Shown here in pieces: positions 6,407 to 22,459 of a stretch of 41,513 bases of DNA. A program made the translations under genes and the position numbers. Under the pieces are notes generated by a model, which was not told the DNA's origin, made no database searches, and worked only from the letters and a program-made list of their open reading frames with translations. The stretch is from positions 1-41,513 of the forward strand of contig JAUWFX010000004.1 of NCBI GenBank assembly GCA_030606765.1. Direction: 5' to 3'. The DNA is from Dehalococcoidia bacterium (GTDB lineage Bacteria > Chloroflexota > Dehalococcoidia > GIF9 > AB-539-J10). Position 1 is the first letter of the stretch. Every line of letters begins with the position of its first letter.

Positions 6407-7162
6407 TCACCCCACCATATTCTTATCCACCCCACGTCGGTGGGTGGTGAAAACCCAGGCTCTGGTTTTCTTCATAAAGTCTCTTACCTCTTCGTCAGTG
6501 CGAAAATCTTCTTCGCCGAAGTAGTCACGATGAACCATCTTGTCGAGCGGCTTCATCAGCTTGGGCCTCGATTTGTAAGCAGGATAGCCCAGGGCGATCA
6601 TATCGTAGACCTCCATCTCGTTGGGTATGCGTAAAAGGTTCTTCAGTAAGCAGTGGTTATAAGGTGATGCCACCGAAGATACCCACTGGCTGGCCAGACC
6701 CAGCGTCGTAACCGCCAAGTGCATATACAGAAAGGCGTTGGCCAGGCTGGAAAGGTAGATTGATTGTTTTATATGCGGGTCACATCTTACCTCCATGGGT
6801 AACCCCACCTGAGTTCTGGTATCGCCAAAGAGTAATATAAGAACAGGGGCATTCTGGTACTCCATTTCCGGGTCAAGCCAGGGCTGTCGTTTCTGCCGCA
6901 TCCAGGGCTCACACATATCTTCCAATTCGGAGAATCCCGAGGCTCCGGCTGGACGGGGCGGTCTGATAATTCGAATAACGTCGTCCTTTAATTTCTTATC
7001 CTTGATGACGATAAACTCCCATGGCTGCGAGTTAAAGCCCGATGGAGCCCAGCGAGCAGCTTCAATAATCCTGTCCACATATTCATCAGGTATAGGGTCT
7101 GGCTTAAACCTGCGGATGGTCCTTCTTTCTTTAACCAATTCGAGAAAGCTCTCATAATTCAT
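6407..7162 (-). CDS. Nitroreductase-family protein
   Basis: An FMN-dependent nitroreductase-fold protein of 251 residues from the chosen start (MNYESFLELVKERRTIRRF). The family reduces nitro groups, quinones or halogenated aromatics with NAD(P)H, usually as a homodimer. The N-terminal RRTIRRF and the ARWAPSGFNSQPWEF motif bind the FMN phosphate and define the family; the C-terminal part is longer than in minimal enzymes (MALGYPAYKSRPKL-type segment present). The start at 7162 is preferred over 7183 because AAGGAGGAG lies 6 nt upstream of it. Substrate cannot be deduced. The stop codon lies inside a small inverted repeat described under rejected items. Confidence 0.88.
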   Translation of the reverse strand: MNYESFLELVKERRTIRRFKPDPIPDEYVDRIIEAARWAPSGFNSQPWEFIVIKDKKLKDDVIRIIRPPRPAGASGFSELEDMCEPWMRQKRQPWLDPEMEYQNAPVLILLFGDTRTQVGLPMEVRCDPHIKQSIYLSSLANAFLYMHLAVTTLGLASQWVSSVASPYNHCLLKNLLRIPNEMEVYDMIALGYPAYKSRPKLMKPLDKMVHRDYFGEEDFRTDEEVRDFMKKTRAWVFTTHRRGVDKNMVG

Positions 7163-7374
7163 CGCAATCTCCTCCTTAAGCATGACTATTACCGTAAGAG
7201 TCTAGTTTCCCCAAAATCTTAATTCCTGGTGTATTATACCCCGTGCGGTTAAGTTTTTCCCCAGAATTTCATCAGCATTGGTAAAAAGTCCATAAATTGG
7301 GTGATATGGGTTCAGCCCTGGCTCTCTGTTTTTACGTTTGTTAACCTTGTGATTGAGGCTGATTCGTACCTATT

Positions 7375-7440
7375 CACCACTGTACGAACATAGGGATGTT
7401 TGTCCAGCGATGCGTACAAATATTCGATTCCGTTTTCCTT
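7375..7440. repeat. Dispersed hairpin repeat, family A, copy 2
   Basis: The hairpin CGAACAT-AGGG-ATGTTTG (one G-U pair) is enclosed by an outer 6-bp stem, TGTACG with CGTACA (7381-7386 and 7412-7417). It lies just beyond the 3' end of the GLUG lipoprotein gene. Confidence 0.75.
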
Positions 7441-7475: not shown

Positions 7476-9437
7476 TTACGGCTCCCAGCTCAGGAAGGGA
7501 TAGGTCACTCCATTGACGATATTCCAGATGTAGGAAGGATTGCGCGTGCCGGGATTGGCGACTGCGATGATGTTCCAGCCTGCCTCTGAGAAGGTGGCGA
7601 TGTCCTGCATTTGTGCTGTGGTCTTGCCTGTCCCGCCAGCCGAAGTAGCTTGTCCGCTGGTTTCGGTGTCCCAGAAGGAGTCGCTCACGGTGCCCTCCCA
7701 ATTTTGTCCCACCAGACCGCCAACGGACGGATGACCAATATTACCAGTCACGGTGCCGGTCGAATAGGAGTTGCTCACAGTACTAGGAACATCAATCTCA
7801 TTCTGTCCATTCGCTCCTAAGAGGCCGCCGACGCGAAGATTGCCGGTTACGCTGCCTGTGGAATAACAGTTGTTTATGCTGCCGTTAAGATTCCATCCGA
7901 CCAGACCACCAACAGTATAATCGCCAGTCACACTACCTGCGGAATAGGAGTTGCTTACAGCACCAGCGGAATCATACGCATTCCCTCCATTCACTCCCAA
8001 AAGACCGCCGACGCCCAAATTGCCGGTCACGCTGCCTGTGGAATAACAGTTGTTTACGCTGCCGGCATAATTCCATCCGACCAGACCACCAACAGTATAA
8101 TCACCGTTCACGCTGCCTGTGGAATGAGAGTTGCTAACACTGCCCCGATTATATCCCACCAGACCGCCAGCACACTCAATAGTGCTAGTGATGTTACCGG
8201 TAGAATAGGAGTTGTTAACATTGCCTGAATTCCCTCCCGTCAGACCGCCAACTGCCGAGTTGCCAGTCACGCTGCTCGTAGAATAAGAGTTACTCACAGT
8301 ACCATAATCATTAAATCCCGCCAGACCGCCAACATCCACATGGGCGCTTATGTCGCCAGTGGCATAGCAGTTGGTCACACTGCCATACACAATACTTCCC
8401 ATCAGACCGCCAACAAACGACTCGCCAGTCACGGTGCCAGTGGCATAGCAGTTGCTCACAGTTCCTGAACTATATCCCACCAGACCGCCAACATAATTAT
8501 AGCCAGTTATGGTGATGCTCGTCACACCGATATTCTGGACGATTCCTCCCACACTAACTTCGCCAAAAAGGCCAATATAATTCTGAGAAGGCCGGTTGAT
8601 AAATAGGTCATATATCTCGTAACCCTGGCCATCCAAAGTCCCGGTAAATAGATAACTCTGAATTCCAATTGGCTGCCAGCCCTTTCCTTGATTGGCTGTC
8701 GGGCCCGCCAGCCAAGTATAGCCAATAGAGTTGGAATCGAGGTCATTAATGAGGATGAAGTGGCTGCTCAGGTAATCGCGGACACTATCAAGCTGATACC
8801 AATCTGCAATCTGGTAGGGGTCCTCGGCTGTTCCGTTTCCTCCGGCGAATGGGCTGAAGTTAGCGGTGATGGAGTAGGAGTCAAACATGGTGATGTTGGT
8901 CGCGGCAGCATCCACATCGGCGATGGTATCTACATTGCCAGTCCAGTTGACAAAGCGGCAGTGTTCGTCAGGCTCGGCGACAAGATCAATTGTCGTGTTA
9001 GCGGCATAGGCAAAATATCCTTCACCGGGTTCGGTTACCGACCCTCCATAGGTACTATCGATGGTGAGGTAATACCAACCTTGGTCCAGTACGAAGTTGG
9101 CGGTGATGAAGTAGTGGTCGTTCATGGTGATGTTGGTCGCAGGAGCATAGACATCGGCGATGTTGCTCACATCACCAGTCCAGTTGACAAAGTAGTGGTG
9201 GTCGTCAGTCTCAGCGACAAGTTCGACCGTCGTATTAGCGGCATACCACGATTCACTCTCACCGGGGGTTGTTACGGACCCTCCATAGGTACTGGAGATG
9301 GTAAGGTTATAATAGTCGCGACCTTCTGGTTCACCTTCACCACAGCCTGCTATGCCGACAATCAAAGTCGCCACAATCAGCCAGATGCCAACTCTTGCCA
9401 AGTAATGATGTCTCGACGGACCAGGGATTATCTTCAT
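7476..9437 (-). CDS. Lipoprotein with InlB-type repeats and GLUG repeats, probable surface protein
   Basis: A 653-residue secreted protein. A basic start, hydrophobic stretch and the lipobox-like VGIAGC (Cys at about residue 32) indicate a lipoprotein signal peptide. Two divergent InlB_B/Listeria-Bacteroides-type repeats follow (about residues 43-195, each with YGGSVTxPGE and FVNWTG). Next comes a linker with the GTAEDPYQIADWYQLD motif, then ten GGLxG-centred GLUG units (about residues 310-590), and a closing WDTETSGQ...GVTYPFLSWEP segment known from other GLUG proteins. GLUG repeats are found in large adhesins such as those processed by IgA-type peptidases. A surface-exposed adhesive role is inference. 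The gene stands alone between two family A repeats. Confidence 0.85.
   Translation of the reverse strand: MKIIPGPSRHHYLARVGIWLIVATLIVGIAGCGEGEPEGRDYYNLTISSTYGGSVTTPGESESWYAANTTVELVAETDDHHYFVNWTGDVSNIADVYAPATNITMNDHYFITANFVLDQGWYYLTIDSTYGGSVTEPGEGYFAYAANTTIDLVAEPDEHCRFVNWTGNVDTIADVDAAATNITMFDSYSITANFSPFAGGNGTAEDPYQIADWYQLDSVRDYLSSHFILINDLDSNSIGYTWLAGPTANQGKGWQPIGIQSYLFTGTLDGQGYEIYDLFINRPSQNYIGLFGEVSVGGIVQNIGVTSITITGYNYVGGLVGYSSGTVSNCYATGTVTGESFVGGLMGSIVYGSVTNCYATGDISAHVDVGGLAGFNDYGTVSNSYSTSSVTGNSAVGGLTGGNSGNVNNSYSTGNITSTIECAGGLVGYNRGSVSNSHSTGSVNGDYTVGGLVGWNYAGSVNNCYSTGSVTGNLGVGGLLGVNGGNAYDSAGAVSNSYSAGSVTGDYTVGGLVGWNLNGSINNCYSTGSVTGNLRVGGLLGANGQNEIDVPSTVSNSYSTGTVTGNIGHPSVGGLVGQNWEGTVSDSFWDTETSGQATSAGGTGKTTAQMQDIATFSEAGWNIIAVANPGTRNPSYIWNIVNGVTYPFLSWEP
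7801..8160 (-). repeat. 180-bp tandem duplication inside the GLUG region
   Basis: Bases 7801-7980 and 7981-8160 align in register at a period of exactly 180 bp. The first ~120 bp of each unit are close to identical (for example 7861-7920 against 8041-8100), while the last 60 bp are less alike. Each unit encodes two GGLxG motifs. This is a recent internal expansion of the repeat domain. Confidence 0.85.
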
Positions 9438-9558
9438 ACCCTATATTTGCCTTATAGTACTTATTGCACTATTATATAATAACATTGTTAAATTTTCATT
9501 AAGGAAGTTGTCAGTAGTTTTTGTGCGGCGTCCAAGACATACTATGGAGTTAAGGAGT

Positions 9559-9664
9559 CACCACTGCACGAACATAGGCATGTTTGCCCAATGATGCGTA
9601 TAAATATACTATACCTTTTTCTTATTCAATAAAAGTATAAACAGTTATTTCTTAATTGTTCAAT
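9559..9664. repeat. Dispersed hairpin repeat, family A, full-length copy 3 (106 bp)
   Basis: The longest form of the repeat: hairpin core CGAACAT-AGGC-ATGTTTG, the ATGCGTATAAATAT box, and a second imperfect palindrome TATAC...GTATA. It matches 12401-12506 over 106 bp with about 11 differences by eye and no gaps. It fills part of the 325-bp gap between the lipoprotein and acs genes. Confidence 0.85.
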
Positions 9665-9747
9665 CGGGCTGCTGCTGCTCTTATGCCCCCGGCTGTGCAT
9701 ACCAGTCCGCCTATTCCAAATCCGACCTGTACTGAATCTAAAGCCAA
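9652..9747 (-). CDS. Possible 31-residue small protein downstream of acs
   Basis: A TTG-initiated frame just after acs encodes a Gly/Ala-rich hydrophobic peptide (MALDSVQVGFGIGGLVCTAG then an Arg/Ala-rich tail). Its last codons and stop lie within the family A repeat at 9559-9664. There is no clear ribosome site. It could be a true membrane peptide, or the remnant of a longer gene truncated by the repeat. Low confidence. Confidence 0.25.
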   Translation of the reverse strand: MALDSVQVGFGIGGLVCTAGGIRAAAARLNN

Positions 9748-9763
9748 ATAAGGTGTCTTATCA

Positions 9764-11728
9764 CTACACCCTTTCTTTTACCAGTGTATGCACTACTGAC
9801 GGGTCAGCCAGGGTGGTAATGTCACCCAGGTTATCAACCTCACCAGCACCAATCTTGGTCAGGATTCTTCTCATGATCTTACCGCTCCTTGTCTTGGGTA
9901 GAGCATCAGCAAACTGGATCTTATCGGGTGTGGCTATTGGCCCTATCTCTTTTCGGACATGGGCTACCAGCTCTTTTTTGAGCCCATCGGATTTTTCCGC
10001 ATTAGCCATCAGGGTAACAAAGGCGTATATGCCCTGTCCCTTAAGTTCGTGTGGAATACCCACTACTGCTGCCTCAACCACTTTATCGTGGGATACCAGA
10101 GCACTTTCCACTTCAGCGGTGCCTATGCGATGTCCTGATACGTTGATAACATCATCAATTCGTCCCATCAGCCAGTAGTAACCGTCCTTGTCCACTCTGG
10201 CTCCGTCTCCCGTGGTATAAACACCGGGGAACTGGACGAAGTAGGTATTTTTGAACCTTTCCGGGTCACCATAGACCCGCCGCATCAAGCCAGGCCAGGG
10301 CCGCTTGATCACCAGGTAACCACCTTCATTTACCTCGGCCGGTGAGCCATTTTCCCTGAGCACGGCTAACTCAATTCCGGGGAATGGCAAGGTAGCCGAC
10401 CCCGGTTTCATGGGAGTAGCTCCTGGTAGGGGGCTAATCAGTGCAGCGCCGGTCTCGGTCTGCCACCACGTGTCCACTATCGGGCGTTTGCCTTTGCCGA
10501 TTACGTTGTAATACCACATCCATGCTTCAGGGTTAATCGGTTCGCCAACCGTGCCCAGGATACGTAGTGAGCTCAGGTCATGCTTATTCGGCCAGTCGTC
10601 CCCTTCCATCATTATGGCACGGAGGGCAGTGGGCGCGGTATAGAAGATATTGACCTGGTTCTTTTCCACAATATCCCAGAACCGGTCAGGGTGAGGATAG
10701 TTGGGTACACCCTCAAACATGAGGCAGGTGGCACCAGCAGCCAGTGGGCCATAGACGATATAGCTATGGCCGGTAACCCAGCCGATATCAGCGGTACACC
10801 AGAATGTATCCTCATCCTTGATATCGAATATCCACTTGAAGGTCTGGTAGGCGTACAGCAGGTAGCCAGCTTGAGTGTGGAGAACACCCTTAGGTTTTCC
10901 GGTGCTGCCACTGGTGTACAGGATGAACAGCGGATCCTCAGCATCCATCACCTCAGGCTCACAGACTGGTCTTATATCTCCAGCCTCCATTTCCTCATGC
11001 CACCAGTAGTCACGGCCTGGCTGCATATTTACTTGAATGTGAGCCCGCCGAACTACAATCGCGTCTTTTACTGCCGGGCATTTTTCCAGGGCAGCATCAG
11101 CATTATCCTTACTTCGGATAATACGGCCGCTGCGGTAGTAGCCATCGACACAGATAAGCATTTTCGCATCGCAGTCTAATATCCTGTCCCTCAATGCCTC
11201 GGCACTAAAACCACCAAAAACAACGCTGTGGATAGCCCCAATTCGGGCACAGGCAAGCATGGCAATTGGTAGCTCCAGAATCATAGGCAGGTAAATAGAT
11301 ACCCGGTCGCCCTTCTTGATTCCGTGCTTCTTCAGTACATTGGCAAACTTGCACACGTTATAGTATAGCCCTTGGTAGGTGAGCGTCTTGGTGTCACCGA
11401 TATCTCCCTCCCAGGTCAAGGCTGCTTTGTTTTTACGCCAGGTCTTAAGGTGTCTATCCAGACAGTTATAGGAGACATTGAGTTTACCACCAACAAACCA
11501 TTCGTGCTTACCTTCCCCGAAGTCTTCAACTAGTACCTTGTCCCATTTCTTGTACCAATCTAGCTGTTGGGCAGCCTCTCCCCAGAAACCCTCAGGGTCG
11601 TCAAGGGACCTTTGATAGATTTCTTTATACTCCTCCAGGCTCTTGATGTACGCCTTTCTACTCAACTCCGCTGGGGGATAGAAGACCCTCTTTTCTTGCA
11701 TCATAGAACTAAGTGTTTTTTGTTCCAT
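9764..11728 (-). CDS. acs: Acetyl-CoA synthetase (AMP-forming)
   Basis: A 654-residue cytoplasmic enzyme that activates acetate to acetyl-CoA through acetyl-AMP. The ANL-superfamily signatures are all visible: the P-loop [11 protein letters not shown], the [18 protein letters not shown] motif, the hinge region [20 protein letters not shown], and the C-terminal [11 protein letters not shown] containing catalytic Lys617, the residue that protein acetyltransferases modify in homologues. Length is normal for Acs. GAAGGA lies 9 nt before the ATG. It follows the cNMP-binding gene by 69 nt on the same strand, suggesting co-transcription. In an anaerobe the enzyme would assimilate acetate, which is inference from the family. 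Confidence 0.96.
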
Positions 11729-12637: not shown

Positions 12638-13402
12638 ATGAGAAGATTGAGTCCTGATTCATTATTTCACTTCACATCTTGTCTTGAGAATATTCTGGGT
12701 ATACTGAAAAATACATTTTACCCTAGATATTGTTACGAGGAATTTGAATTGATAGACAAACCGAAAGAAAAATTTATACGTAGTGCTATACCGATGGTTT
12801 GCTTTTGTGACACTCCATTATCTCAATTAATGAATCATATTGAAACATATGGGAAATATGGATTGGGAATGAAAAAGGAATGGGGGATAAGGAAAGGGCT
12901 TAATCCTGTTATTTACTTCAATAAAAATTCAGATATGGCAAAAGACTTAAACAAGACAGCAATTCGGCTTTTGAAGAATAAAGGTTCAGCAGCTTTAAAA
13001 ACGTTTTGGAATATCCTTGTGTATTTAAAACCGTATGAGGGAGTCTTATACAGAGGTGGGAGTATTACCAAAGAGAATGTAAGATTCTATGATGAACATG
13101 AATGGCGATACGTGCCAGATAGAAGAGTGATGAATAAAAATTTAATAACCGTGAGTCTATCAGAAGTCGTGTATCGACAACCGGAAATTCTAGCGGATGC
13201 AAATAAACAGCTTGAAAGGGATGAAACTAGGCTTTCTTTTAATGCAAATGATATTAAGTACATAATTATAAAAGAGGAAAGCGAGATCAATAAAATGATA
13301 AAAAAATTAAGAGTCATTAAAGGTATTAGATATGATAGTGATACGATAGATAGACTAGCGTCACGTATTATTACTGTTAAGCAAATTGAAAATGACTTCT
13401 AG
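12638..13402 (+). CDS. AbiGi-like abortive phage resistance protein
   Basis: A 254-residue protein that I recognise as the AbiGi family (PF10899-type). The start LSPDSLFHFTSCLENILGIL and the later IPMVCFCDTPLSQLMNHIETYG and YGLGMKKEWGIRKGLNPVIY segments are the family hallmarks. In lactococcal AbiG, AbiGi is encoded with a second protein, AbiGii, and the pair blocks phage multiplication; Pfam describes AbiGi as the antitoxin-like partner. No AbiGii-like gene is seen next to it here. The gene is clearly richer in A+T and AAA/ATA codons than its neighbours, which points to horizontal transfer. It is convergent with the protease gene at 13485. Confidence 0.75.
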   Translation: MRRLSPDSLFHFTSCLENILGILKNTFYPRYCYEEFELIDKPKEKFIRSAIPMVCFCDTPLSQLMNHIETYGKYGLGMKKEWGIRKGLNPVIYFNKNSDMAKDLNKTAIRLLKNKGSAALKTFWNILVYLKPYEGVLYRGGSITKENVRFYDEHEWRYVPDRRVMNKNLITVSLSEVVYRQPEILADANKQLERDETRLSFNANDIKYIIIKEESEINKMIKKLRVIKGIRYDSDTIDRLASRIITVKQIENDF

Positions 13403-13484: not shown

Positions 13485-14369
13485 CTAATCTGATGCAGTA
13501 TCAACCGCAATATCAGGAACAGGTGGTGTTTTTGCTGATTTTTTGTCGATTAATTCCCTCTGCTTTTTTAGCAATATCGGTTGCTTAATTGTTTCTAGAA
13601 TCTTCTCTACGGGGATCACAATAGCCATGCCCATATTAATTGAGCGTTGCTTATTGGTATCTGGAATGGATACATCAATATCGGCTTCATCTATATCCCA
13701 ATGACCATGCATAAGACCTAATAAAGTAAATGTAAATCCTGATGCTTGTCTCCACTTTTTATCGATTAATCTCCAGTTACCCAAGTAAACAAATACGGGT
13801 GAACCGCTCAATCCACCTATTGACCTGGATTCAATTAAATATGCTTCTATTTTACCGTTCGCGGTCTGCACAGGCTCCTCGGGCATAGCTGCAATATTTC
13901 CGACACGGATTACAGGTATGTTTTTGTTCGTGCCGTGATGAAATCTAAATAAACCAGGCAGGAAAACTTCATCTCCAATGCCTATACCGAGTTCTTTTCT
14001 GCGCTCTGGCGTTGCAGTGGAAATTAAATCATAGGGGCGATAATCCATTGTTTTTGGTGGAGCTATAAATGGTAGAACAGCTACATCAACAGAGGGGTCA
14101 GGATGAAAAACCCACAAACTAATCTGGGATTCCATATCAATAGCTATACCTTCTTCTAAATTACACCTTGTATAAACCTTACCATCAATACTTTTTTCAG
14201 TGATTTTAAGAATATTGTGCTTGGCAGTGACCAAGTAAACAAACCCCGTGTCTTCAACTATTTCACTGACGAAAAAGGCAGTACCACCATAAACAATGTG
14301 TTCTGGTGTAGTTGAAATCTTACAGCCAATAAAAACGACACACTTTCTAATTTCTTCTGGCACTTGCAT
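13485..14369 (-). CDS. Trypsin-like serine peptidase domain protein
   Basis: A chymotrypsin-fold peptidase of 294 residues from the chosen start (MQVPEEIRKCVVFIG). The catalytic triad is visible in order: His51 in VTAKHN, Asp95 in SVDVAVLP, and Ser189 in GGLSGSPVFV. There is no signal peptide, so it should be cytoplasmic, unlike DegP proteases, and it has no PDZ domain. The ORF is open to an ATG at 14444 (25 more residues), but that start has no Shine-Dalgarno, while GAGGA lies upstream of 14369. Cytoplasmic trypsin-like domains are common effectors in bacterial defence systems; its position beside the AbiGi-like gene makes that plausible but not shown. Confidence 0.75.
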   Translation of the reverse strand: MQVPEEIRKCVVFIGCKISTTPEHIVYGGTAFFVSEIVEDTGFVYLVTAKHNILKITEKSIDGKVYTRCNLEEGIAIDMESQISLWVFHPDPSVDVAVLPFIAPPKTMDYRPYDLISTATPERRKELGIGIGDEVFLPGLFRFHHGTNKNIPVIRVGNIAAMPEEPVQTANGKIEAYLIESRSIGGLSGSPVFVYLGNWRLIDKKWRQASGFTFTLLGLMHGHWDIDEADIDVSIPDTNKQRSINMGMAIVIPVEKILETIKQPILLKKQRELIDKKSAKTPPVPDIAVDTASD

Positions 14370-14595
14370 TAGAATATCTTCCTCATGAGCTGTAGAATAT
14401 CTGGGTGTCCGAGTTATTCTGTAAGCCGTTAATATTTCTAACATATAGAGTTATTCTTGGCAATAATGATGTTAGTAATGAGCAAGGAGTTGCGATATCT
14501 CAAAGTGAAATGCCACCGAATTGCTATTTGTCATGAGTTATTGGTATTGAAATACGTGAAGGTGCGGAGAGAAAAACGGCGAATTAACGGAAAAT

Positions 14596-14805
14596 GTGAA
14601 GGCTATCAAGAATATAGTGGATGACACATCCTGGTTTAGAGACGCTCCTCATTATTGGGCAGAAGCGTCGTTGCCTTTGGCTTATGCTGTGGCGTGTGTG
14701 GAAGTCGTGTCTAAAAGTTCGGAGAAGGCTAGCGTACTATACAATTTATTCGAAGCTAAAATTTATTACCACTGCACGAACATAGGCATCACTGTTCCGT
14801 TGTAG
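14596..14805 (+). pseudogene. Possible gene remnant ending in a repeat
   Basis: A GTG-initiated frame of 69 codons with protein-like composition (KAIKNIVDDTSWFRDAPHYW onward). The open frame extends about 13 codons further upstream without a start. Its last 13 or so codons lie in a family A repeat fragment (14768-14790) and the sequence after it. No ribosome site and no recognisable family are seen. It may be the remains of a gene cut by the repeat, or a chance frame. Confidence 0.25.
14768..14790. repeat. Family A repeat, left-half fragment
   Basis: ACCACTGCACGAACATAGGCAT is identical to the left end of copy 3 (9560 onward), after which the sequence diverges. The same left-half form occurs at 22960. 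Confidence 0.7.
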
Positions 14806-14822
14806 GTATACTTATATCGATG

Positions 14823-14858
14823 GAAAAGACTATGCTCTTTTAAGGGCATAGCCTTTTC
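14823..14858. terminator. Probable bidirectional intrinsic terminator
   Basis: GAAAAG/CTTTTC and CTATGC/GCATAG form a 12-bp stem with one internal mismatch and a 10-nt loop. T-runs occur on both strands (CTTTTCTTT on plus, GTCTTTTCC on minus). It sits between the accessory stretch and the glycosyltransferase cluster. Confidence 0.65.
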
Positions 14859-15169
14859 TTTAGACGGGTAGATTGAACAGAGTCGAACTCTCCGTTAAAC
14901 ACGTTTGACTTCCTTTGTAACATTCCCAAAGAATGTTGGGTAACAAGACAGGCTTCTGTTGCCTGAACTAAACAATATGGACTTTCGTTCAATGATGCAA
15001 CAAAGCACTGTTTTTTACAATGAAGTAACAGCACGACAATGATTGCATCGATCGTGCCTATTAGCTGGCATCTCAGCCTCGTTAAATTTGGTGGAAAAGG
15101 AACCTCGAAGCAGCCTACAGTATTGAGGAGAAGAGTTCATCCCCGACGTACCGCAGAGAGAGGCCACCT
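14859..15169. other. Gap with no recognised gene
   Basis: About 310 bp downstream of the GT4 gene. I see no convincing coding frame, RNA gene or repeat copy in it. Short reading frames here lack ribosome sites and family resemblance. Confidence 0.5.
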
Positions 15170-16762
15170 TTAGACAATAGTTGGTGTTTTGTCAGGCACA
15201 GGAAAAGTTGGTCCCAAAGTCGCATCGGTATGGGTGCCAAGAGGCAAAGTTGGGAGCAAACGCCGAATCCTGGAATGGCAGAGTCGTTCTGCCAGCTTAA
15301 AGTGCTCCAACACCTGATTTCTCCACGAGAACTCCTCCGCATACTTCCCCGCTCTCTCTGACATTTCATTCCGAAGCTCGGGATAGAGTACTAGTTCTTT
15401 GAGACTGGCAATTGTTTGTTCAAAGTCCACACAAGCCAAACCTCCAGCCATCTTCACAGTTTCGCCAACACCCTCCATGTCTCGGCAAGTAATTGTAGCC
15501 CCAGCACCTAAGGCATGTGCCAGAATTCCGCTCTGCGTACAGTCGCTTGGCCAATAGAAGTAGATGTCCAACGCTCTCAGCAGGATAGGTAGGATGTCTT
15601 CAGGTAGATAAGTCTCTAGAAAGAACTGTCTTGGACTGTTGTGACTGATCCTCAATTCCGCCGCATAATTGCTACGGACACTGCTGTCGGCTACCCGCAA
15701 GGCGCCGGTATAAACTGCAACGATCCTCTTTCGAGGCAGCATGTGTTGCAGCAAATCTTGGGCACGATAGAGGAGTTCAGTACCTTTGCTGGCGGTGATA
15801 AATCCAGTTGTGCCTATCACGAATGTATCGGAGTCAAGGAACACACGTTGCTGCTTCAGACTATCCTTGTACGCTTGGTCCAATCCGGATTCATATACCA
15901 GATACTCGTGAATCCTCATCTTGGCCTCTGCTCTGCTCATCCTGGCTATTATCGGATTGAGATGAATACCATGCCTTAGCACGTGAACCTTGTCACGATG
16001 TTCTGGGAAGGCTTGATTTACTGCTTGGTATACGCCATCACTAAACACAGTGATCGCATCCGTGTGAGGTAGCAGCAAGCGCAGGAATGAGTATTCCTTT
16101 CTTCGCAGCCCGCAAGTGGTTTCACTACTTTGAAAATGAAGTGTATGGAGGGAAACCACCTTTGTTTGGTCCAAGTCCCTGAGCATATCAACGAATTTGG
16201 CGTTGTCTGGCCAGATACCGAATTCGTGTTGAAACCATAGGACAGAGTTTTCTTTTTTCGCAACGAGTTCGTTGAGTCCATCTTGAATCATTGGCGCGCT
16301 AAAGCTACGACGGTCAGGTATGCCGTACCAAACACGACCCATTGTCAACTCACGGTCAGCCGTTAACGGCACCCCGTATTTCTCCAGATCAAAGGATAGA
16401 ACACCCCACCTTCCAACAGGGCTCTTACGAGTTATAAAGCTCGTGTAGTCAGCTATCCCACACATTATGGGCTTATATGGTCCCACGAAGTAAATAGATG
16501 CCATTTCACCACCCCCCTTCATCTCTTTGTGCATACCATGTACAGGTATATCAACTAGCGGAAGGCGTTTAATACTAGGATCTGGAACTGTAGATGTAGT
16601 TGCCACTGCCAGACTTCCGTGCTTTGTTGGCTCGGCGGCATGAGGGACAGCGATTGGGCTCGTTAGTAAAGCCTTTAGATGCGAAAAATTCTTGTTCCCC
16701 AGCGCTGAAACTAAAGGTGGTTCCACAATCGGAACATTGATCGACTTGTCCTGAAAACTCAT
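15170..16762 (-). CDS. GT4-type (GT-B fold) glycosyltransferase
   Basis: A 530-residue retaining glycosyltransferase of the GT-B fold. After an 85-residue, Pro- and Ser-rich N-terminal extension, the Rossmann core begins at ASIYFVGPYKPIMCGIADYTSF, a common GT4 start. The acceptor domain ends near HVLRHGIHLNP, and the C-terminal domain has VIGTTGFITASKGTELL and the sugar-nucleotide loop region (YWPSDCTQSGILAHALGAGA), although the usual EGFG/E-x7-E acidic motif is weak. The start at 16762 follows GGGGAGGAGG by 7-8 nt. An alternative start at 16504 (MASIYFVG), also after a G-rich tract, would remove the extension. It lies downstream of the GT-A/GH130 fusion gene on the same strand but has its own promoter. 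Donor and acceptor are unknown. Confidence 0.8.
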   Translation of the reverse strand: MSFQDKSINVPIVEPPLVSALGNKNFSHLKALLTSPIAVPHAAEPTKHGSLAVATTSTVPDPSIKRLPLVDIPVHGMHKEMKGGGEMASIYFVGPYKPIMCGIADYTSFITRKSPVGRWGVLSFDLEKYGVPLTADRELTMGRVWYGIPDRRSFSAPMIQDGLNELVAKKENSVLWFQHEFGIWPDNAKFVDMLRDLDQTKVVSLHTLHFQSSETTCGLRRKEYSFLRLLLPHTDAITVFSDGVYQAVNQAFPEHRDKVHVLRHGIHLNPIIARMSRAEAKMRIHEYLVYESGLDQAYKDSLKQQRVFLDSDTFVIGTTGFITASKGTELLYRAQDLLQHMLPRKRIVAVYTGALRVADSSVRSNYAAELRISHNSPRQFFLETYLPEDILPILLRALDIYFYWPSDCTQSGILAHALGAGATITCRDMEGVGETVKMAGGLACVDFEQTIASLKELVLYPELRNEMSERAGKYAEEFSWRNQVLEHFKLAERLCHSRIRRLLPTLPLGTHTDATLGPTFPVPDKTPTIV

Positions 16763-16872
16763 TCGGTGACCTCCTCCCCTTTGAATCTTAGTTGGAGTCC
16801 GGTCACCCAATACTTCAGTGGTCTGCAGTTATTTGAAGAAGCTTGTAATAACTAAACTGAAACTAAGAATTA

Positions 16873-16902
16873 ATTATACACAAAAAAGAGCCTCTTTGTC
16901 AA
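16873..16902 (-). promoter_or_regulatory. Promoter of the GT4 gene
   Basis: Minus strand TTGACA (plus 16897-16902), an 18-nt spacer, TATAAT (plus 16873-16878). Both hexamers are perfect. The transcript would carry a ~100-nt leader before the ATG at 16762. The rest of the 410-bp gap to the fusion gene (up to 17172) shows nothing recognisable. Confidence 0.75.
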
Positions 16903-17172
16903 ATGAGTGCAATAACACAGGTAATGAACGGCCTTATCAATCCTTTCTTGACGCTCTCTGCTTTTACTACCACTCGATTAAACGTGCTCCCTTTGGCGTC
17001 AGCGGAACCTGGTGCTATCCGCGGTAGTTATTTCGACTACGAAACCGACAAAATGTCACATTATTGGGTGTGTGACTCTCGCTTGGGCGAGACGCTTAGA
17101 TGATTCTATACGGAGCAATATCAAGATTGCAATCATGGTATGCTTACTTGGATGGCGATTTCTAGATGGGTG

Positions 17173-20100
17173 CTATTTCAAATAGCCGCTGCGGTTTTTG
17201 CCTCGCCTGATCTCTTCTGGAACGAGGTCGGACACCTTCGCTATAGCAACGCACGCTACCGTGTCTGCTGCTCCATAGTAAACAAGAACCTCATCATCAT
17301 CGTCAAGCATTTCCTTGTTCACTTGGGAAACAGCACCGCAGCTGAATACTACATTAGGAACATAGTGCCCCTTCTCGCCAATCTCGTAGCTTTCTTCGGG
17401 CTCCAATATAGGATTGGGCGAGCGATAAAGCAGGTATCCTGGGTCGTCCAGGGCTACCAGCAGCACACCAAGTCGATATATGAAGGAACGGTCAACACCG
17501 TGATAGATGAGAAGCCACCCATATTTGGTTCTAATGGGCTGAGACCCACCGCCAATTTTGAACCCATCCCACGCCATTCCTGCTCCTGGGCCTACTAATA
17601 TGCGATGCTCTTGCCGGGGCCAGGGACAGTCAAGGCGCTCAGAGTAAGAAATCCAAATACTCGGATCGATCCTATGATACATGACATACCGTCCGTTGAA
17701 CGCCTGCGGAAATAAGGTGGCATCCTTGTCGTCAAAGCCAGGAAAAGCAAGACCATGTTTTCTCCACGTGTTCCAGCGACGATTCAAGAAGTCATCCAGA
17801 CCGATTGAAGCCAAGGCGATCTGAGCGGAGACACTGCTGTAGGCAGTATAAAACATGTAAATGCGTTCTCCGATGAGGACAAGCCTGGGATCCTCACAGC
17901 CTTTTGCCTCCCACTCCTCTCCTGGCTCAAATATCGGGCTTTCCAACCTCTCCTCAATATGCAGGCCGTTTGAGCTTATGGCGAGCCCGATTCGGGAAAC
18001 CTCATCCTCTCCGTATGCGCGATACAGGATGTAGATCTTGTCTTTCAACCTTATCGCACCAGGATTGAACACGTACTTGGATTCCCAGGGGTGTTCTGCT
18101 ATCGCCTTGAGAATAGGATTCCCTGTAAACCTGCTCAGCTTGCCTGCTTCAGGCTCCGCTGGACGTAGCAGTTGCTCAGGCATTACCTGCTGCGCCGTTT
18201 GCCAGCCAGGAAGGAGCAGCCGAGCCAGGTTTTCCGATTCCCTCCCGTTCCCCATTAGTTCTGTAATCTTGCTATCCATGTTCTCCTCGGTACCCCCTAG
18301 TGCCGTAACCAGTTCGACCAGAAATTCCCGTGATGCCCAATCTCTCTCCACGTGCAGTGAGAGAGGCGTAGGCACACCTTTTCCTCCTTTAAAGCTATAA
18401 CTGGCCCACGTCCAAGCAGAGCAAGGTACGAATTTGCCATCAGGTAAAGACAGGGCAAGGTGGTAGCAATCCATGATATGACTCAAGTTTTGCGTGAGAC
18501 GCGACAATGAGAGATTCTCCTTTATCTCCAAATCCCGGATCATCTTTCTCACCCGCTCAACCAATATCCTCTGGACCTTACTTTCAAATATGTTGTGGGC
18601 GGATAAGGGATCTCCTCCCCAATGGCCCTTCAGCGAGTTTACTACCTTGGTTCCGAATTCCTTTCTCTCCCGTGCAAACTGTTCCCATATTTCCCCAAAT
18701 TTTTCAGCTTCCACAATATTCTTAGCCATCACTAGGAAATAGCGTAGCTTGGGAAATTCACCACCTTCTCCCCGGCGCAAATTACTGACGACAAGCCTTC
18801 CTGCGAGCTTGCTTAAGGTCGAAGGCTCCTTGTGAAGTGCAAGCGTGGAGAAATGCTCATAGCTTACTACCAGTGGCTCCAAAGGCAGGCAGGCAAAGTG
18901 CTCGGGCCGTGCATTTCCGGCTATCCATTCCCACACTCTCTCCGTATATTCTGTCTCCTCCAACAGGCTAGACAAAGCCAAGATATCCTTTGGCCCGTAG
19001 TGTTGTTCAAGCTCGGCCAGGTTGGCTGCACCGAATCTGATGAGCAAGTTGGAGGGTGGATTTCGCTGTAGAATCCAAGAGGCCACCTCAGGTTTTAGAG
19101 TGAAGGTTTCCGAACGAGGAAAGTTCTGCAATATGGCCTCAGCAACCTTCTTGGTTCCATCCAAGGTTGAAAGATCCCCGCTCAAAAGGAGTTCGTGCAT
19201 ATCCTGCTCCACCTGGAGCATTAGCTTGTCTATGTTTTCGGCGATATCGGTGGAATTCGGCTCGTGAGGGATCTTGAGCTGTTCATGGTAGAATCCCCTA
19301 AATTCCCTGTAGTGCCTTTGAAGAATATCCTTATAGATGCTATCAGTTCTTATGATCTCTTCGGTAGCGGAGGTAAGCTCCTTAGGCAGTATTAAGGGAA
19401 CTCCAGGTATGAACTCGCGGTAAGTCACCATAGGCAGAAGTGGCTTGAGAGTATCTTCCTTGTCCCTCCATGCCGCCAAGAAGCCGGCCTTCTGTTTGAT
19501 GAATTCCTCAATCTGCTGTTGAATCTCCCGCTCCGCCACCAGAGCAGTGAGTTGCTCTGCCTGGTCGAGGATAGTAGCCCCTGACCGTTGCTTGAACACC
19601 TCAAGCTCCTCAGCAAACCCGGCCTCTCTTGCATAGCAAATGGGGATGAAAGCATTCAAGACAGTGTCCCTGGCGAATTCCTGTTCTAGACAGTAAACGA
19701 GTAAAAAGTCATAAAGGATCTCGGTCCAGAGGTGCGCAGGAAACCTGAAAGCCTTTCGGTCAGTCCCTGCTAGCCTCTGTAGTTCTATTGAAGCTTCTCT
19801 GGAGAGGATCTCCTCATATAAGCCCTGGAACTCTATGTAACCTTGTCTATATCGCTCTATTGCAAAGGGGTCTGGTGTCACTTCTTCCGGGCAGTGGGAC
19901 TTTCTGTCTCCGAAGATAGCTAGGGGGTAGATTATGTCTCCTCTTTGCTGCCACCAGTCTTTGCTGGCTGCAATCTGCTCAAAGATTACTTTGGTTTGTT
20001 GCCTCCACACACTTTCTTTGTCTGGGTAGACTCTACGAATCTTCACACCAAGGCTGGTTTCGCAAATCTTCGCTTCGTTGATGATGGCCGTCGTGATGAG

Positions 20101-20838
20101 CTGGCTATCCATGCCATACTCACCAACTTCATCACTCCAGATGTTGAGATCAGCCAAATAGATTCTGAGGAGCTTGCTTGAGATACCAAGTATTTTGCCT
20201 GGCAGTCCCCCTGCTTTCAGATTAAAGACGGAAGCGAGCAAAGGACTCACGAGGTGATTGGATACTGTATTATCAAGGTAGTGACTATTGAACCTGGGTA
20301 TAACGAGGTCTACACCTTCTTTCTCTATCGGAATGATGAGACGACTTACCCATTGCGGAGCCAAGCCTTCAATTTCAGTTTTCACCTTTCTGCTATCAAG
20401 GTCGGGCTCAAATAAAGCTAAATCGGCGTTAAGCCTGTTCGCTATCTCTACTATTACCTTAAGAGTCGAAGCTTTGTCCCTCGCATTTTCATTCTTCATG
20501 AGGAAGGCTATCATCTCTACTGCATGTCCCAGAGGTACTTCCTGAATAACGTCCAAAGCGTCCTTCCCTTCCGGCGTGCCAACGCACACAATAACGCATT
20601 TCTTGTCAGGGAAGAATTCTGAAAGCCCCTTTGCCGTGATTTTGCATACGTGCCCAATTGTATCGACTTCGTTTTGGAAGGGGATGCCCACTACAATATT
20701 TGCATTCCCTATCCTCTCGGCTATCTCGAGGGGTTTATTAAGGGATTCCGCATAGGCTTTCTCAGTTAATAAGGTGCTCTTTTCAGTATCTTTCAAGTCT
20801 ACTCCTTGTCTCAATGGCGATATATCTGGTAATGCCAC
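17173..20838 (-). CDS. GT-A glycosyltransferase / GH130 glycoside phosphorylase fusion
   Basis: A 1221-residue protein joining two enzymes. Residues about 45-275 form a GT-A glycosyltransferase resembling glucosyl-3-phosphoglycerate synthase-like enzymes (IVVGIPFQNEVDTIGHV, the DxD-like EPDLDS at 144-149, VIPRFNSHYLDNTVSNHLV, and EYGMDSQLITTAI). Residues about 903-1212 form a five-bladed GH130 domain with FNPGAIRL, the signature GCEDPRLVLIGERIYMFYTA including the proton-donor Asp983 of the family, and LLIYHGVD. GH130 enzymes phosphorolyse or hydrolyse beta-mannosides. The 600 residues between are mostly helical and unassigned. GTG start with weak AGG. A divergent GT4 gene shares its upstream region, suggesting a joint pathway for a mannose- or glucose-containing glycoside, possibly a compatible solute; the product is inference. 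Confidence 0.8.
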   Translation of the reverse strand: MALPDISPLRQGVDLKDTEKSTLLTEKAYAESLNKPLEIAERIGNANIVVGIPFQNEVDTIGHVCKITAKGLSEFFPDKKCVIVCVGTPEGKDALDVIQEVPLGHAVEMIAFLMKNENARDKASTLKVIVEIANRLNADLALFEPDLDSRKVKTEIEGLAPQWVSRLIIPIEKEGVDLVIPRFNSHYLDNTVSNHLVSPLLASVFNLKAGGLPGKILGISSKLLRIYLADLNIWSDEVGEYGMDSQLITTAIINEAKICETSLGVKIRRVYPDKESVWRQQTKVIFEQIAASKDWWQQRGDIIYPLAIFGDRKSHCPEEVTPDPFAIERYRQGYIEFQGLYEEILSREASIELQRLAGTDRKAFRFPAHLWTEILYDFLLVYCLEQEFARDTVLNAFIPICYAREAGFAEELEVFKQRSGATILDQAEQLTALVAEREIQQQIEEFIKQKAGFLAAWRDKEDTLKPLLPMVTYREFIPGVPLILPKELTSATEEIIRTDSIYKDILQRHYREFRGFYHEQLKIPHEPNSTDIAENIDKLMLQVEQDMHELLLSGDLSTLDGTKKVAEAILQNFPRSETFTLKPEVASWILQRNPPSNLLIRFGAANLAELEQHYGPKDILALSSLLEETEYTERVWEWIAGNARPEHFACLPLEPLVVSYEHFSTLALHKEPSTLSKLAGRLVVSNLRRGEGGEFPKLRYFLVMAKNIVEAEKFGEIWEQFARERKEFGTKVVNSLKGHWGGDPLSAHNIFESKVQRILVERVRKMIRDLEIKENLSLSRLTQNLSHIMDCYHLALSLPDGKFVPCSAWTWASYSFKGGKGVPTPLSLHVERDWASREFLVELVTALGGTEENMDSKITELMGNGRESENLARLLLPGWQTAQQVMPEQLLRPAEPEAGKLSRFTGNPILKAIAEHPWESKYVFNPGAIRLKDKIYILYRAYGEDEVSRIGLAISSNGLHIEERLESPIFEPGEEWEAKGCEDPRLVLIGERIYMFYTAYSSVSAQIALASIGLDDFLNRRWNTWRKHGLAFPGFDDKDATLFPQAFNGRYVMYHRIDPSIWISYSERLDCPWPRQEHRILVGPGAGMAWDGFKIGGGSQPIRTKYGWLLIYHGVDRSFIYRLGVLLVALDDPGYLLYRSPNPILEPEESYEIGEKGHYVPNVVFSCGAVSQVNKEMLDDDDEVLVYYGAADTVACVAIAKVSDLVPEEIRRGKNRSGYLK

Positions 20839-21001: not shown

Positions 21002-22459
21002 ATGAAAGTGCTTATTGTTCATTTTCGCTCCGCTCCCGCCGGGGGACTGCAAAAACACTGGGTAAATGTGGATCCCCTCGACTCGGCGGGCACTGACGGC
21101 GTTTCCCTGGAGATAGCCAAACGCCAAGCTTCCCTCGAAGGGATGGGTCATAAGGTAGCGATTTGCTCAGCATACGATTGGGCAGACTTCGCGATACCGG
21201 CATTGGAGTTTGACTCTGAAGAAGTGATGCTGATGATGCGGAATTTATTCGGACCTGGGCTAGTGGACTTTGCTAGCGAGGCAGAGTTGAAAAGCGCATT
21301 TGATGCCTCATTACTGAAACTGAGGCAGGAATTGGGCAAGGTGATTACGGATTTCAAGCCAGGCATACTATTTGCCCACAACATGTTATCTCTTCCTGTG
21401 CATCCCGTCGCGACTTTAGCTTTAACCGACTTGCTCAGAGAGACCCGGTTGCCTTGCGCTGCGATCCACCATGACGTTCTAAGCGAAGGCGCCTACAAAT
21501 TCACCCCGACATGCGATTTCGCGAAATCAATTCTCGAGGGATATTTTCCTCCAGTATTACCTAATCTTAGACATTGGACGATCAACTCTCGCAATCAGAT
21601 GGCTCTCAAGAATAAAGGCATCCAAGCCGAAGTGATCCATGATACCATGGATTTCAATCAAAAACTTGACACGGCAGAGCAAACCAGGATTCGAGCCAAT
21701 CTTCGTGGGAAATACGGTATCAAGCCAAATGACATCGTTCTCTTTGCCGGAGCCCGCATTGTGCCCAACAAGCAGACTGAATTGGCAGGGCACCTAACCG
21801 AAGTTTTGCAAAGGTTGCATCAGGAGATAGTCGGGAAGAGGCTGTACACCGGCGAAGTGTTTTCTGACCTCAATAGAGTAGTGTTGGTTCTCGCAGGTCG
21901 ACCGGAGCGGGCCTTCATTGACTACCAAAAGAAGGTGTTTGATCTGTTTGACACATTGAAAATTGTCTGGAAATATATAGGTGGTGATGTTCGCCCATAT
22001 CGTTCCGAAGATGAAGGGCTTTATGCTCTGTATCCCGATTTCTATGCTATGGCCGACTTCGTCCTTTACCCCACGGGATGGGAAGGATTTGGAAACCAAC
22101 TTCTCGAGGCATTCGCCTCTGGGCTGCCCGTGGCAGTCTTCGAGTATCCCGTTTTCAAGGAGGATATTGCCCCGAGGGGCGTTAAAGTCGTGTCTCTTGG
22201 AGACACACTTCTCCCAGAGAGAGACTACATAGGGCTTGTTCAAATTCCCGTGGAAGTGCTGACGCGAGCGGCCCGCGAGATAATGGCAATCCTTACGTGC
22301 CCTGAGAAGTTGCCAGGTATCACTGACCACAATATTATGGTAGGAAAAAGGTGCTTCAGCTTCGATGTGCTTCGAGCTCACCTAAATGAGGCACTAACCT
22401 GGGCCCGCCTAATTAAAGGTCAAAAGGTTGATGAGGTTCAGCAGAACCAGGATAGCTAA
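21002..22459 (+). CDS. GT4-type glycosyltransferase
   Basis: A 485-residue GT-B glycosyltransferase starting MKVLIVHFRSAPAGGLQKHW. An N-terminal acceptor domain contains DGVSLEIAKRQASLEGMGHKVAICS (sugar-binding loop) and AAIHHDVLSEGAYKF. The C-terminal donor domain has FAGARIVPNKQTEL and the GT4 nucleotide-sugar motif PTGWEGFGNQLLEAFASGLPVAVFEYP, with both glutamates present. The open frame extends to 20774, but those codons run across the divergent promoter region and lack protein-like character, so the ATG at 21002 is chosen. It is divergent from the GT-A/GH130 fusion (164 bp between starts). A mannosylglucosyl-3-phosphoglycerate synthase-like role is one option given the neighbour, but unproven. 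Confidence 0.82.
   Translation: MKVLIVHFRSAPAGGLQKHWVNVDPLDSAGTDGVSLEIAKRQASLEGMGHKVAICSAYDWADFAIPALEFDSEEVMLMMRNLFGPGLVDFASEAELKSAFDASLLKLRQELGKVITDFKPGILFAHNMLSLPVHPVATLALTDLLRETRLPCAAIHHDVLSEGAYKFTPTCDFAKSILEGYFPPVLPNLRHWTINSRNQMALKNKGIQAEVIHDTMDFNQKLDTAEQTRIRANLRGKYGIKPNDIVLFAGARIVPNKQTELAGHLTEVLQRLHQEIVGKRLYTGEVFSDLNRVVLVLAGRPERAFIDYQKKVFDLFDTLKIVWKYIGGDVRPYRSEDEGLYALYPDFYAMADFVLYPTGWEGFGNQLLEAFASGLPVAVFEYPVFKEDIAPRGVKVVSLGDTLLPERDYIGLVQIPVEVLTRAAREIMAILTCPEKLPGITDHNIMVGKRCFSFDVLRAHLNEALTWARLIKGQKVDEVQQNQDS

Follow-up and report, generated by a model that had tools for sequence, protein, structure and literature searches.

A three-domain protein joining a GT78-like fold to a GH130 domain in anaerobic microbes

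GH130 enzymes are usually viewed as catabolic single-domain proteins. They invert the anomeric configuration between beta-mannosides and alpha-mannose 1-phosphate (alpha-Man-1-P), and in Leishmania a GH130-like propeller of family GT108 can turn over a beta-1,2-mannan reserve, mannogen (PMC8950772, excerpt). In mannosylglycerate synthase (MGS), a GT78 glycosyltransferase (GT), the active site comprises a Lys76-Asp100-Asp192 network, with Asp102 and His217 as metal ligands (PMC2581804, excerpt). Here we describe a gene on contig JAUWFX010000004.1 of a Dehalococcoidia bacterium (positions 1 to 41,513; this 41,513-nucleotide stretch is hereafter the window) whose product departs from the usual view of GH130 enzymes: a GT78-like GT-A fold, a middle domain and a GH130 domain follow one another in one polypeptide.

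Architecture and distribution of the fusion

The open reading frame (ORF) at 17173-20838 lies on the minus strand and has 1221 codons from a GTG, from which residues are numbered throughout. The features of the gene are as follows.

17173..20796, minus strand: fusion gene, probable coding sequence of 1207 amino acids (aa) from a TTG start; the longest ORF (17173-20838, GTG) encodes 1221 aa
20802..20807, minus strand: AAGGAG, Shine-Dalgarno-like, 5 nt before the TTG at 20796
19474..20697, minus strand: GT-A domain with helical C-terminal part, residues 48-455, MGS (GT78) fold
20401..20409, minus strand: E144-P145-D146, at the DxD position of GT78
20035..20037, minus strand: R268, at the place of metal-binding His217 of MGS
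18154..19455, minus strand: middle domain, residues 462-895, mostly helical, no known family found
18337..18414, minus strand: W809-x-W811...GG818-819...E831-x-x-W834, the most conserved middle-domain stretch
17224..18141, minus strand: GH130 domain, residues 900-1205
17884..17901, minus strand: GCEDPR with the catalytic ED motif, residues 980-985
17725..17727, minus strand: K1038, probable counterpart of BT3780 Lys199 (beta-1,2 specificity) by alignment and spacing only

The TTG at 20796 is a likelier start than the GTG because the AAGGAG precedes it and most near homologues begin there (13 of the 18 nearest, P0002-P0019; four begin upstream and one slightly further in). GH130 was the sole family in a Pfam scan of the protein (residues 917-1205, E 2.5e-53; PF04041, 181.5 bits against a gathering cut-off of 26), and a fold search assigned the N-terminal domain to the GT78 fold. 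At E<=0.1, the Pfam GT2 model matched 19 of 40 members of the family (the strongest at 9.8e-5), and the window protein was unmatched. A preliminary description of this DNA had proposed a single protein with a GT-A glycosyltransferase at one end and GH130 at the other. That much is confirmed, the GT-A part by fold and weakly by sequence, the GH130 part by Pfam, with the GCEDPR signature near the C-terminus as described. What had been called a DxD-like motif in fact reads E144-P-D146. The "about 600 unassigned residues" between the ends shrink to about 435, as the MGS-like fold extends to residue 455, and the suspected third domain is supported by a middle domain matching no family found.

The same description had allowed for a sequencing error joining two adjacent ORFs. 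A whole-length search (7997 candidates scored) returned 686 proteins at E<=1e-3; among the best 120, 117 exceed 1150 aa and most span the query. A genome scan gave 446 confirmed stretches, the best 80 of which yielded 79 loci. Five of these, where the match is cut by a contig end, were excluded; in all 74 loci read, an open frame of 1156-1295 aa runs across the match, with a stop 2-9 residues short of the tblastn match end in six. Full-length homologues and open frames across many genomes rule out a sequencing or assembly artefact, and the recurrence of long single frames in relatives rules out two joined ORFs. The fusion is real and widespread among anaerobic microbes.

Record titles of the loci name Dehalococcoidia, other Chloroflexota, Deltaproteobacteria, many Firmicutes (including the isolates Thermosediminibacter, Fervidicola, Syntrophaceticus and Tepidanaerobacter), Methanophagales, Methanomicrobia, Latescibacterota and Myxococcota; single titles may be wrong because most loci are metagenome bins. 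In the phylum of the Dehalococcoidia genome at locus L005, the middle domain occurs in two of 400 genomes (G004 and G005, both known beforehand), and the gene is therefore patchy there. Within the phylum to which the Syntrophaceticus locus belongs, 398 genomes gave 55 middle-domain matches, of which 51 lie in frames of at least 1169 aa and the other four in frames of 718, 855, 1015 and 1102 aa; seven of the 48 positive genomes hold two matches each. In all nine genomes reached through loci, the domain sits inside a frame of 1182-1302 aa. Some metagenome-assembled genomes carry several copies of the fusion gene: three in Chloroflexi bin.164 (L014, L018, L023) and two in a Mahella genome (L058, L072). 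At L061 a second long ORF (14274-17861, 1195 aa), which clusters with GH130 proteins, lies near the first copy.

No characterised protein of GT-GH130 architecture was found in the literature searched, CAZy and subscription journals lying outside that search. The source names given to named members are 'glycosidase' and 'predicted GH43/DUF377 family glycosyl hydrolase', and the three-part build cautions against taking such labels at face value.

Conserved sites in the three domains

Residue conservation was assessed in 104 representatives (<80% identity) drawn from 192 proteins longer than 1140 aa; three short homologues (1025-1113 aa) were excluded from the counts. In the GH130 domain, N925, R940, E982, D983 and D1192 (catalytic Asp, -1 subsite), mapped onto BT3780 by alignment and order, are present in 104 of 104, as is K1038 at the correct spacing for the Lys199 equivalent. 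A Glu beside the catalytic Asp together with a Lys at the Lys199 position fits beta-1,2 enzymes (PMC4599007, excerpt). R1056, K1094 and H1113 are also conserved, and three solved relatives likewise have basic residues or His there; we infer that these are phosphate ligands, which fits a phosphorylase better than a hydrolase. Whether the phosphate site is kept had been raised in the preliminary description: the substrate-site and basic residues are retained, on a putative mapping of ligands.

The transferase end has fared differently. Counterparts of the MGS site residues in the window protein are, in order, K122, E144, D146, D244 and R268 (K-E-D-D-R), the metal-binding His thus being replaced by Arg; MGS Lys76 lies outside the MAFFT column of K122, which reads M, and was equated with it via the GKG motif. 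The canonical set K-D-D-D-H is found in none of the 104 fusion representatives, a relaxed site (K/R, D/E, D, D/E, H) in 35 and K-E-D-D-H in 33, the Methanophagales protein at L029 being one of these. In a FastTree tree built on the middle and GH130 domains, the clade holding the window protein (22 tips, support 1.0) contains no intact relaxed site, all 22 being degraded. None is intact in the main Firmicutes clade either (24 tips, support 1.0), where the first acid is retained in seven and the His in none. Intact relaxed sites number 33 in a 47-tip group that adjoins the window clade and is not itself a clade, and two (L019, L058) among the 11 tips outside these three groups.

Unfused GT relatives served as a control (n=32): 28 loci (L086-L113), the best 28 of 39 places that reached E<=1e-47 when 301 genomes from the phylum of the Dehalococcoidia genome were searched, and four proteins. 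All 32 have K-D-D-D-H. At the acceptor site, the window protein has S185, D189 and S193 in place of MGS R131, D135 and T139, which we take to be the glycerate-site residues; the Arg, Asp and Thr are retained in 32, 31 and 32 of the 32 unfused relatives, against 78, 35 and 2 of the 104 fusions. Because the unfused relatives are intact and the fusions are not, the GT domain was altered at or after fusion, and more so in the window clade. The unfused relatives at L086-L113 retain a glycerate-type acceptor site and are perhaps glucosylglycerate-type synthases; the one at L111 lies within a 1347-aa open frame, possibly another kind of fusion or a mere long frame.

The median ratio of nonsynonymous to synonymous substitution rates, taken over the 40 closest pairs out of 58 (the pairs are not mutually independent), is 0.16 for the GT domain, 0.26 for its helical part, 0.17 for the middle domain and 0.095 for GH130. 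These values indicate that the GT domain is under purifying selection, though not for the classical site. Among GT-A proteins, COSMC has lost the motifs and serves as a scaffold and chaperone (PMC7185993, excerpt). Since the GT domain is kept without its classical site and the fold tolerates such loss, we favour a scaffold as its probable role.

Part of the active site thus appears to be missing from the transfer half of the window protein, which makes a machine that both makes and recycles a glycoside unlikely. The earlier suggestion of two ends working on one and the same glycoside finds no support for a further reason: the GT part resembles the retaining transferases GT78 and GT81, so named in PMC2581804 (excerpt), GH130 enzymes are inverting, and the expected linkages are alpha and beta, respectively.

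In the middle domain, 22 positions are conserved in 102 or more of the 104 representatives, including the near-invariant acids E475, E544, E752, D800 and E831 and the tryptophans W809, W811 and W834, a pattern that could reflect sugar binding or catalysis. Among the 25 of 27 families listed, no Pfam or NCBIfam family common to more than two of 40 members was found for it; a PDB sequence search gave a best match of only E 0.61, and in a structure search with the whole model, GH130 chains took up most of the match list. In the protein database, 52 proteins match the domain, 38 of them with precomputed GH130, and in whole genomes it lies in frames of at least 718 aa, mostly about 1200; it has so far been found only within the GT-middle-GH130 architecture. 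Several database proteins of about 770 aa that start just ahead of it (P0143, P0144, P0153, P0158) may be GT-less forms or internal starts. P0128 (GT part) and P0153 (middle and GH130) lie on contigs of the same length (5517) and are perhaps one split gene. A GH127 lead (P0162) was dropped, its Pfam GH127 match at residues 38-130 lying outside the middle domain and its ends looking chimeric by eye; four other middle-domain proteins scanned gave no significant family.

Gene neighbourhood and proposed function

Neighbouring genes were clustered by BLAST with single linkage in 75 loci (the 74 and the window), each cluster taking its name from one representative or a few; counts are lower bounds because many loci are short. 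GT4-type neighbours occur in 54 of 75 loci (cluster 0, of mixed protein lengths, with two representatives lacking a Pfam match), mannose-1-phosphate guanylyltransferase in 21, phosphomannomutase in 18, GT4 with a mannose-6-phosphate-isomerase cupin in 16, a GH5-like relative of mannanases and mannosidases in nine and a separate GH130 in eight. Cluster 6 was judged a chance association and dropped. A GT4-like gene adjoins the fusion in the window and in six closer relatives (L001, L002, L004, L005, L007, L011). Those in the window are:

15170..16810, minus strand: GT4-like gene downstream of the fusion, encoding 546 aa; unmatched by Pfam, with a weak hit to an NCBIfam GT model (E 4e-5), and placed in the single-linkage GT4 cluster
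21002..22459, plus strand: divergent GT4-like gene resembling mannosylglucosylglycerate synthase (245 bits, cut-off 640)

At L060, a separate GH130 (6485-7432) and a double-length GT4 (7640-9937, 765 aa) directly precede the fusion, an arrangement that recurs similarly in L052, L061, L063, L067, L068 and L073. Elsewhere in the window, 12638-13402 (plus strand) has a Pfam AbiGi match, a putative abortive phage resistance antitoxin, and 7476-9437 (minus strand) encodes a protein of 653 aa that has InlB B-repeat-like domains and matches the GLUG motif six times.

We consider it probable, with clear room for doubt, that the fusion protein is a presumably cytosolic GH130 phosphorylase acting on a beta-1,2-mannoside, with the GT part in the window clade probably serving as a scaffold or chain-binding module. 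The GH130 domain would reversibly remove or add mannose at the non-reducing end, (Man)n + Pi <-> (Man)n-1 + alpha-Man-1-P, the beta-1,2 linkage and phosphorolysis being suggested by the nearest relatives and the kept residues. The alpha-Man-1-P made or used would connect the polymer to the GDP-mannose pool. The N-terminal domain, presumably descended from a GT78-like transferase, has probably taken on this same scaffold or chain-binding role in the main Firmicutes clade, and may still prime the chain, with a modified site, in other lineages; the middle domain is most likely a mannan-chain holder or a further catalytic unit.

Several observations weigh against this interpretation. The window protein conservatively retains four of the five GT-site positions (K, E, D, D; the His is Arg), and an altered site is no proof of inactivity because some GT-A enzymes are active without the DxD or the C-terminal His (PMC7185993, excerpt). 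The NCBIfam model for beta-1,2-mannobiose phosphorylase gives a score of 240, below its cut-off of 450, GH130 specificity is not safely readable from sequence, and the activity of every family member is a prediction. No GDP-mannose-synthesis gene was found among the 28 ORFs scanned in the window, so the link to GDP-mannose comes from guanylyltransferase and mutase neighbours in relatives that are 36-42% identical and almost all carry Firmicutes titles.

An unlikely alternative is that the GT domain still works, transferring sugar from nucleoside diphosphate donors in the K-E-D-D-H members. The relaxed sites favour it, 33 of the 35 lying in the 47-tip group with Chloroflexota and ANME, within which ten charged GT positions are kept; so do a C-x-G ending at residue 87 that is common to the fusion and GDP-mannose-using MGS (all 32 unfused relatives have D there), the GDP-mannose genes nearby in Firmicutes and the precedent of CGS (PMC10834661, excerpt). 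Yet the canonical set separates fusions from unfused relatives completely, the window clade is broken throughout, the acceptor-site Thr is nearly gone from the fusions, the linkages expected of the two ends disagree, and the clade with the GDP-mannose genes is the very one that keeps no His and seldom the first acid. A salvage role alone strikes us as improbable: phosphorolysis of imported beta-1,2-mannooligosaccharides would feed GDP-mannose, as for Teth514_1788/1789, with the first 900 residues serving folding, oligomerisation or chain delivery. A Thermoanaerobacter cluster of GH130, guanylyltransferase, GT4, GH5 and an ABC importer has been proposed as salvage (PMC4264767, excerpt), and the GH5-like neighbour and neighbour cluster 4 (14 of 75 loci, ABC-ATPase-like by eye, in variable positions) agree with that, but no solute-binding or permease cluster was seen among the clusters examined, most small clusters being unannotated, and some 900 residues under purifying selection are much for salvage alone.

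Beyond the phosphorylase-with-scaffold interpretation, a wider proposal, itself doubtful, is that strict anaerobes contain an unrecognised beta-1,2-mannan inside the cell, a prokaryotic counterpart of mannogen, with this family as its central enzyme. The MGS-like domain would prime the chain in some lineages and would have turned into a pseudo-glycosyltransferase in others. The middle domain would represent a new kind of carbohydrate-active domain, with an acidic active site of its own, and GH130 would build or mobilise the chain via Man-1-P. The three-part family suggests that anaerobes have a mannose polymer or storage system that has gone unstudied, and its lineage-specific loss of the transferase site provides a testable example of a glycosyltransferase that became a scaffold.

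Comparison with known systems

The phosphorylases Teth514_1789 (7fip) and Teth514_1788 (9fj8) resemble the window GH130 domain in fold, ED pair, basic residues and the probable beta-1,2 Lys, at 41-42% identity, and have gene company similar to that of the Firmicutes fusion relatives (guanylyltransferase, GT4, GH5). Each of them has a single domain and about 300 aa, whereas the fusion has about 900 extra residues ahead of GH130. Rhodothermus marinus MGS (GT78, 2bo4) shares the fold of the fusion's N-terminal 408 residues, including the helical C-terminal part. Against it, the window protein has 12% identity, Arg for the metal His, Glu for the first DxD Asp and Ser for the acceptor Arg and Thr, and is fused to two further domains.

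CGS, with its GT84 end, has the same order of GT, middle domain and C-terminal phosphorylase-family domain. The likeness is one of analogy only: its GT and phosphorylase families are different, it handles glucose and not mannose, and its GT84 end is catalytic; the two middle domains match in position. The Leishmania GT108 MTPs are 15% identical to the fusion and have neither an MGS-like nor a middle domain; there the propeller, which presumably uses GDP-mannose, does both reactions alone.
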